A stretch of DNA of 64,000 nt, taken from NCBI RefSeq assembly GCF_000755245.1, contig NZ_BBMP01000006.1, forward strand, positions 124,001 through 188,000, written 5' to 3'. The position numbers and the translations under genes were made by a program. Position 1 is the stretch's first letter. Each line of letters opens with the position of its first letter. This document shows positions 14,802-16,296 of the stretch, piece after piece. Below the pieces are notes generated by a model. That model had not been told where the DNA came from, did not search any database, and was given only the letters and a program-made list of their open reading frames with translations. Origin of the DNA: Halococcus sediminicola. Its GTDB lineage: Archaea; Halobacteriota; Halobacteria; Halobacteriales; Halococcaceae.

Positions 14802-14848
14802 GTGCTGTTCGCTGTGTAGGATGCGTCCGAGTCGAAGTGAGGGGTGAT

Positions 14849-14923
14849 GCAGGGGCTACGCCCCTACAATAATGCGTCCGCGCGCGCCGACCGCGCCGCT
14901 CGGAACCGGCGTGCGCCGAGCGG
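14849..14923 (-). promoter_or_regulatory. putative attenuator-like hairpins of the ilvB leader
   Basis: Two hairpins can be drawn on the transcript. The first pairs CCGCTCGG (14923-14916) with CCGAGCGG (14903-14896), 8 bp with a 12-nt loop. The second pairs GUAGGGGC (14867-14860) with GCCCCUGC (14856-14849), 8 bp including one U-G pair and a 3-nt loop. The second begins inside the Val codon of the leader peptide and contains its stop. No U-run follows, so it is not a textbook terminator; a pausing or translational device is equally possible. Confidence 0.45.
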
Positions 14924-14939
14924 TCGTCGGTCGTGCCAT
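14856..14939 (-). CDS. putative ilvB operon leader peptide (27 aa)
   Basis: An ORF of 27 codons that begins MARPTTARRTPV and ends RGRIIVGA. The last codons are ATT ATT GTA GGG GCG TAG, i.e. Ile-Ile-Val just before the stop. A TATA-like element is centred 29-30 nt upstream of the ATG, so the transcript should begin at or next to the ATG (leaderless). It precedes the branched-chain operon by about 185 nt. Isoleucine and valine codons at the end of a short ORF that runs into a hairpin resemble bacterial ilv/ivb leader peptides. I know of no established archaeal example, so function is inference. Confidence 0.5.
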   Translation of the reverse strand: MARPTTARRTPVPSGAVGARGRIIVGA

Positions 14940-14963
14940 CGTGGTCGTTCTCACTACGGTGGT

Positions 14964-14973
14964 GGTAATAACC
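14964..14973 (-). promoter_or_regulatory. promoter of the ilvB-leuB operon
   Basis: On the minus strand the sequence is gggTTATTAcc, a TATA-like box at 14971-14966, centred about 29 nt before the leader-peptide ATG. It is the only good AT-rich element between the leuA stop and ilvB. Confidence 0.55.

Positions 14974-15059: not shown

Positions 15060-16296
<1,237 letters not shown>

Follow-up and report, generated by a model that had tools for sequence, protein, structure and literature searches.

The acetolactate synthase gene ilvB of Halococcus sediminicola is preceded by a short open reading frame, uORF1, whose last codons include isoleucine and valine codons and whose stop codon lies inside an RNA hairpin. 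The best explanation for this arrangement, and one that we consider probable, is a leader for ribosome-mediated attenuation in response to isoleucine and valine (Ile/Val), carried on a leaderless archaeal transcript. As judged from sequence comparisons, the leader is conserved in essentially the whole class Halobacteria. A second open reading frame, uORF2, which is probably coupled to ilvB and had no place in the original prediction for this locus, belongs to the same device.

The window, i.e. the whole stretch of 64,000 nt that was analysed (contig NZ_BBMP01000006.1, positions 124,001 to 188,000), carries every leader feature on its minus strand, as follows:
14971-14965, minus strand: TATA box TTATTAC, its first base 32 nt 5' of the uORF1 ATG; the same -32 spacing is seen in most relatives
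14939-14856, minus strand: uORF1, the putative sensor leader ORF, 27 codons including ATG, MARPTTARRTPVPSGAVGARGRIIVGA, stop codon TAG
14923-14916 with 14903-14896, minus strand: inner 8-bp hairpin CCGCUCGG/CCGAGCGG in the uORF1 body
14862 to 14873, minus strand: control codons ATT ATT GTA and the invariant GGG (Ile-Ile-Val-Gly)
14867-14849, minus strand: hairpin GUAGGGGC-GUA-GCCCCUGC, which extends from the Val codon around the uORF1 stop
14819 to 14848, minus strand: G-poor, pyrimidine-rich, unstructured spacer, its 3' end being the conserved block
14825-14819, minus strand: conserved block CGCAYCG, here CGCATCC
14765-14664, minus strand: uORF2, the putative relay ORF, 33 codons, MNDREHQTRLHTPHPRATYRPRTDADNGGGDDE, sharing 8 nt with the start of ilvB
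14671-12863, minus strand: ilvB, acetolactate synthase large subunit (TIGR00118, 682 bits), the presumed regulated gene

The leuA gene (end at 15060) is located upstream, whereas ilvB is followed downstream by ilvN and ilvC. Both the ilvB-ilvN-ilvC order 3' of the leader and the 27-codon ORF behind a TATA box, ending in Ile-Ile-Val-Gly-Ala-stop, were found as originally predicted, and the strand, which the prediction did not give, could be added. In the IlvB similarity search the nearest relatives of the window protein came from Halococcus. Since the TATA box begins 32 nt before the uORF1 ATG, the transcript is expected to start at this ATG and to be leaderless.

To follow the leader across the class, 80 loci were fetched by IlvB similarity alone, two of which had too little upstream DNA. 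The GTAGGGG motif was present upstream of ilvB in all 78 usable loci as well as in the window, and its occurrence in 78 of 78 independently chosen loci excludes chance. The exact pattern ATTGTAGGGGY...CCCC was found in 219 of 292 haloarchaeal genomes, representing 55 of 77 genera, with a single copy in almost every case; the reversed pattern, used as a control in the same scan, gave about a dozen matches in all. Among 24 tested genomes without the exact pattern 22 had a variant that kept the invariant GTAGGGG, the codon before GTA being mostly ATC, in some genomes GTA or CTC and in one ATG. Twenty further genomes from about as many genera showed the same uORF1 layout, and 15 of them also the uORF2 layout. 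The conserved short ORF ending in branched-chain codons, together with a conserved hairpin, that the original prediction asked for in Halobacteria is therefore there, and the loss of the ORF or of its codons in relatives, which would have spoken against the prediction, did not occur. One genome (L085, G123:C2:397923-397943) contained a second copy of the leader (MRQLDTDSHTAPASGGAVGARLIVGV, with hairpin), which had no ilvB within about 1.5 kb and no clear gene downstream.

The way in which uORF1 varies among relatives is that of a translated leader with a drifting body. An in-frame ATG was present in 125 of 127 leaders. In 71 loci a TATA-like TTWT precedes an ATG by 27-37 nt, the spacing being exactly 32 nt in almost all, and the ATG was in frame with the control codons in 70 of them; the sole exception has a second ATG, in frame, four bases on. 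The distance from the ATG to the Val codon varied by multiples of three between 54 and 150 nt, and an in-frame stop (TAG, TAA or TGA) followed within eight codons in 104 of 104 loci. The body of the ORF evolves with a pN/pS of 0.97 (425 pairs), against 0.23 for the ilvB control, and the peptide has no conserved residues before its last four codons. Since the ATG, the frame, the control codons and the stop are kept while the peptide is free to change, the pattern is that of a leader peptide and not of a functional small protein. A short leader ORF with an unconstrained peptide, placed directly upstream of the cognate biosynthetic operon, is also what attenuators of the trp/ilv type have.

The control codons for the regulated amino acids are likewise concentrated at a fixed place, as in the trp/ilv type. 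In 121 distinct ORFs the Val and Gly were invariant, and the residue before Val was Ile in 117, Val in two, Leu in one and Met in one. Isoleucine occupied 195 of 484 positions in the last four codons versus 36 of 2823 elsewhere, and branched-chain residues together 370 of 484 versus 459 of 2823. The codons themselves are rare ones: Val is encoded by GTA in 104 of 104 leaders and ATT is used in 95 of 104, while GTA makes up 0.5 % of Val codons and ATT 7 % of Ile codons in ilvB; about a quarter of these 104 loci had entered the set via the pattern, and the 78 loci chosen by IlvB show the same codons. The outer hairpin pairs GUA:UAC are kept in only 31-67 % of cases, and the constancy of GTA can therefore not be put down to base pairing. 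Both this codon and the T preceding ATT are more strongly conserved than pairing would require, a hint of some additional function at the nucleotide level and a point against the attenuation reading. Taken as sequence evidence, the sensing of Ile and Val by uORF1 appears well supported.

The hairpin that wraps the stop codon comprises, as originally predicted, 8 bp from the Val codon onwards, or 9 with a flanking U-A pair. Its GGGG:CCCC stem had a mean predicted pairing probability of 0.99 in 97 relatives, and the hairpin was much stronger than in dinucleotide shuffles (mean z -3.2). The loop varied from about 3 to 8 nt among relatives. Covariation is scarce, as the 5' arm does not vary; at the inner pair C-G was found in 80, U-G in 10 and U-A in three. 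A second 8-bp hairpin, predicted within the coding part, does exist (14923-14896), but its sequence is not a conserved part of the device; the uORF1 bodies in general tended only towards slightly more structure than their shuffled versions (mean z -1.4, with 30 of 101 below -2). The 20 nt behind the stop-wrapping hairpin contain 8 % G and 72 % C+T. In an alignment of 95 relatives a second conserved element, the block tCGcAYCG, was seen downstream of the hairpin at a distance of about 40 nt, with the uORF2 start about 30 nt further on.

Two further elements of the bacterial trp/ilv type were looked for in the ilvB leaders and not found, and their absence counts against an attenuator. No alternative, antiterminator pairing is conserved that would make a pair of mutually exclusive hairpins, the 5' arm pairing upstream with a mean probability of 0.00 and downstream of 0.01. 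Nor is there an intrinsic terminator with a U-tract, the longest T-run within 40 nt of the hairpin being 1-4 nt. The leader-peptide logic of ilv/ivb type put forward in the original prediction thus holds as regards the conserved ORF, branched-chain codons and hairpin, and does not extend to alternative hairpins or a U-tract.

The uORF2 ATG is usually found 77-110 nt after the Val codon of uORF1. In 93 of 104 loci its stop and the ilvB start share exactly 4 nt, ATGA, compared with 8 nt in this genome. The uORF2 frame is uninterrupted in 102 of 104 loci; the other two frames are so in 39 and 63. The uORF2 peptide is not conserved (pN/pS 0.94). In Haloferax volcanii overlapping gene pairs were strictly coupled in nine of nine cases tested (PMC6728339), and by analogy with these pairs ilvB translation probably depends on uORF2.

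The mechanism that would account for these features is as follows. A ribosome would initiate at the 5'-terminal ATG of uORF1 and, when charged Ile- or Val-tRNA is scarce, would stall at the rare AUU and GUA codons, its footprint covering the 5' arm of the hairpin and keeping it open. With plentiful Ile and Val the ribosome would reach the stop inside the hairpin and depart, whereupon the hairpin could close and lower ilvBNC expression; uORF2, with its stop overlapping the start of ilvB, would then be needed for ilvB translation. A point against this scheme is that a ribosome lingering on the stop codon would likewise mask the hairpin, and the switch thus requires rapid release. The most likely output of the closed hairpin, which we favour without great confidence, would be premature termination of transcription, or cleavage of the RNA, within the pyrimidine-rich stretch directly behind it, an action on translation being clearly less likely. 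A hairpin taken from a coding region and placed in a reporter caused termination of 59 % of transcripts in H. volcanii (PMC7237163).

A possible but considerably less likely explanation keeps the same sensor and makes the output purely translational: the position of the ribosome on uORF1 would gate initiation at uORF2, and hence at ilvB, through the hairpin and the spacer, RNA polymerase being uninvolved. In its favour, uORF2 and the exact ATGA overlap are conserved nearly as broadly as the hairpin, no T-tract follows the hairpin, and the H. volcanii pairs are strictly coupled (PMC6728339). However, sequestration of the Shine-Dalgarno sequence or of the ilvB start by the hairpin arms was rejected, as no consistent pairing with the uORF2/ilvB start region was found (0.16 for the 3' arm with the Shine-Dalgarno sequence). 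Accessibility of the start site also did not change under a simulated stall, and Shine-Dalgarno pairing plays no part at the 5'-UTRs of H. volcanii (PMC3986360).

Nascent-peptide arrest is unlikely. In this case the Ile-Val-Gly-Ala end would stall the ribosome in response to the free amino acid and not via uncharged tRNA, in the manner of TnaC, where the ribosome arrests in response to tryptophan. The peptide end is indeed conserved and the stall point would fall at the stop inside the hairpin, but only about four residues are conserved, the body is under no amino-acid constraint, and the very rare GTA codon is fixed although peptide sensing has no need of it. Hardly more credible, and if anything a shade less so, is a sequence-specific protein-binding site (an RNA or DNA operator) or a riboswitch with an incidental ORF. 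TATTGTAGGGG is conserved at the nucleotide level beyond the needs of pairing and codons, and the CGCAYCG block is conserved downstream; against this, almost all lineages retain the ATG, the reading frame and a stop codon of one kind or another (TAG, TAA or TGA), the variable loop is unlike an operator dimer, and none of 4227 Rfam models matched the leader at gathering or permissive thresholds. A functional small protein encoded by uORF1 is very improbable, for although the ORF is conserved and probably translated, purifying selection on its amino acids, as given above, was not found.

Besides the ilvB leader, a leaderless uORF that ends in GFGFFFA or a similar sequence was found upstream of pheS in 21 of 30 haloarchaeal genomes (L148-L177), with Phe at 80 of 168 positions in the last eight codons versus one of 376 elsewhere. 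It is likely, judging by these codons, a Phe leader and an independent parallel to the ilvB leader. By the same criterion the window's own genome lacks it, and a hairpin around the pheS leader stop was no stronger than in shuffles (mean z -0.1). Scans for Trp, His, Tyr or branched-chain leaders before trpC, trpE, hisG, trpS/tyrS and the Ile/Val/Leu-tRNA synthetases, which serve as negative controls for the pheS match, gave scattered matches only. H. volcanii pheS is listed with a mapped long 5'-UTR containing a uORF of 26 residues (PMC4983044).

The leuA gene presented a different case, involving two reading frames:
16252-15060, minus strand: leuA
16296-16210, minus strand: out-of-frame leaderless ORF

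No ATG, GTG or TTG precedes the conserved LeuA N-terminus, an in-frame stop being located 15 nt upstream of it, and the leaderless ATG of the region lies in another frame. Since an in-frame start codon is absent and the leaderless ATG is out of frame, synthesis of LeuA appears to require that the ribosome shift by +1 at CGA GTT CTT CCA GGG CAC. This putative shift site is nearly invariant (CGA, GTT, CTT and GGG in 73 of 73 loci), and all of the 75 loci that could be used have the upstream ATG of the out-of-frame ORF, usually at a distance of 36-45 nt from the site. The RVLPGH uORF before leuA had been considered as a third leader and was ruled out, because it proved to be where leuA itself begins, out of frame. 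Difficulties with the start codon of HVO_1510, and slippage as a speculative explanation, have already been reported (PMC8305020).

With moderate confidence we incline to a wider reading, in which Halobacteria as a class would control amino-acid genes through the position of ribosomes on leaderless leader ORFs, comprising the hairpin-wrapped Ile/Val sensor with its uORF2 relay to ilvB, the parallel Phe leader of pheS, and the +1 frameshift of leuA from its own leaderless ATG. Attenuation by the translating ribosome is the classic proof of communication between transcription and translation in Bacteria, and Archaea possess a polymerase and termination factors of eukaryotic type. If true, the ilvB leader would be the first ribosome-mediated attenuation in Archaea; we know of no established archaeal case, and none was found in literature searches, which covered open-licence papers only, so that absence there is not proof. 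As a short, conserved and genetically tractable halobacterial element, it would permit a direct in vivo test of archaeal transcription-translation coupling, and it would show how leaderless mRNAs can carry regulation thought to need a 5'-UTR.

To our knowledge the architecture of the ilvB leader has no counterpart in Bacteria. With the bacterial ilv attenuators (ilvL, ivbL and the Corynebacterium ilvBNC leader; PMC10272879, PMC11857589) it shares a short leader ORF with branched-chain control codons, an RNA hairpin and an acetohydroxyacid synthase operon downstream. It differs from them in its leaderless start, in having only 2-4 control codons, in the single hairpin running from the control codon around the stop, and in the extra coupled uORF. 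As alternative hairpins and a U-tract terminator were sought and not found, the leader is not classed as a textbook bacterial ilv attenuator; it also lacks the T-run of the haloarchaeal T-stretch terminator. The pheST operon of E. coli is preceded by the PheM leader, a Phe-rich ORF before pheS like that of the haloarchaeal genomes, from which the latter differs in being leaderless and in the lack of a significant hairpin around its stop. The uORFs in long 5'-UTRs of H. volcanii described by Babski 2016 (PMC4983044) are carried on transcripts with mapped starts and were reported as small proteins; ilvB is absent from the table of 16 such uORFs, which speaks against the attenuation reading, and no attenuation role is proposed in the section covered. 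The termination-reinitiation pairs of H. volcanii (PMC6728339) overlap in the same way as the uORF2 stop and the ilvB start, here mostly as ATGA, the difference being that the upstream partner of ilvB is not a gene but a drifting mini-ORF.
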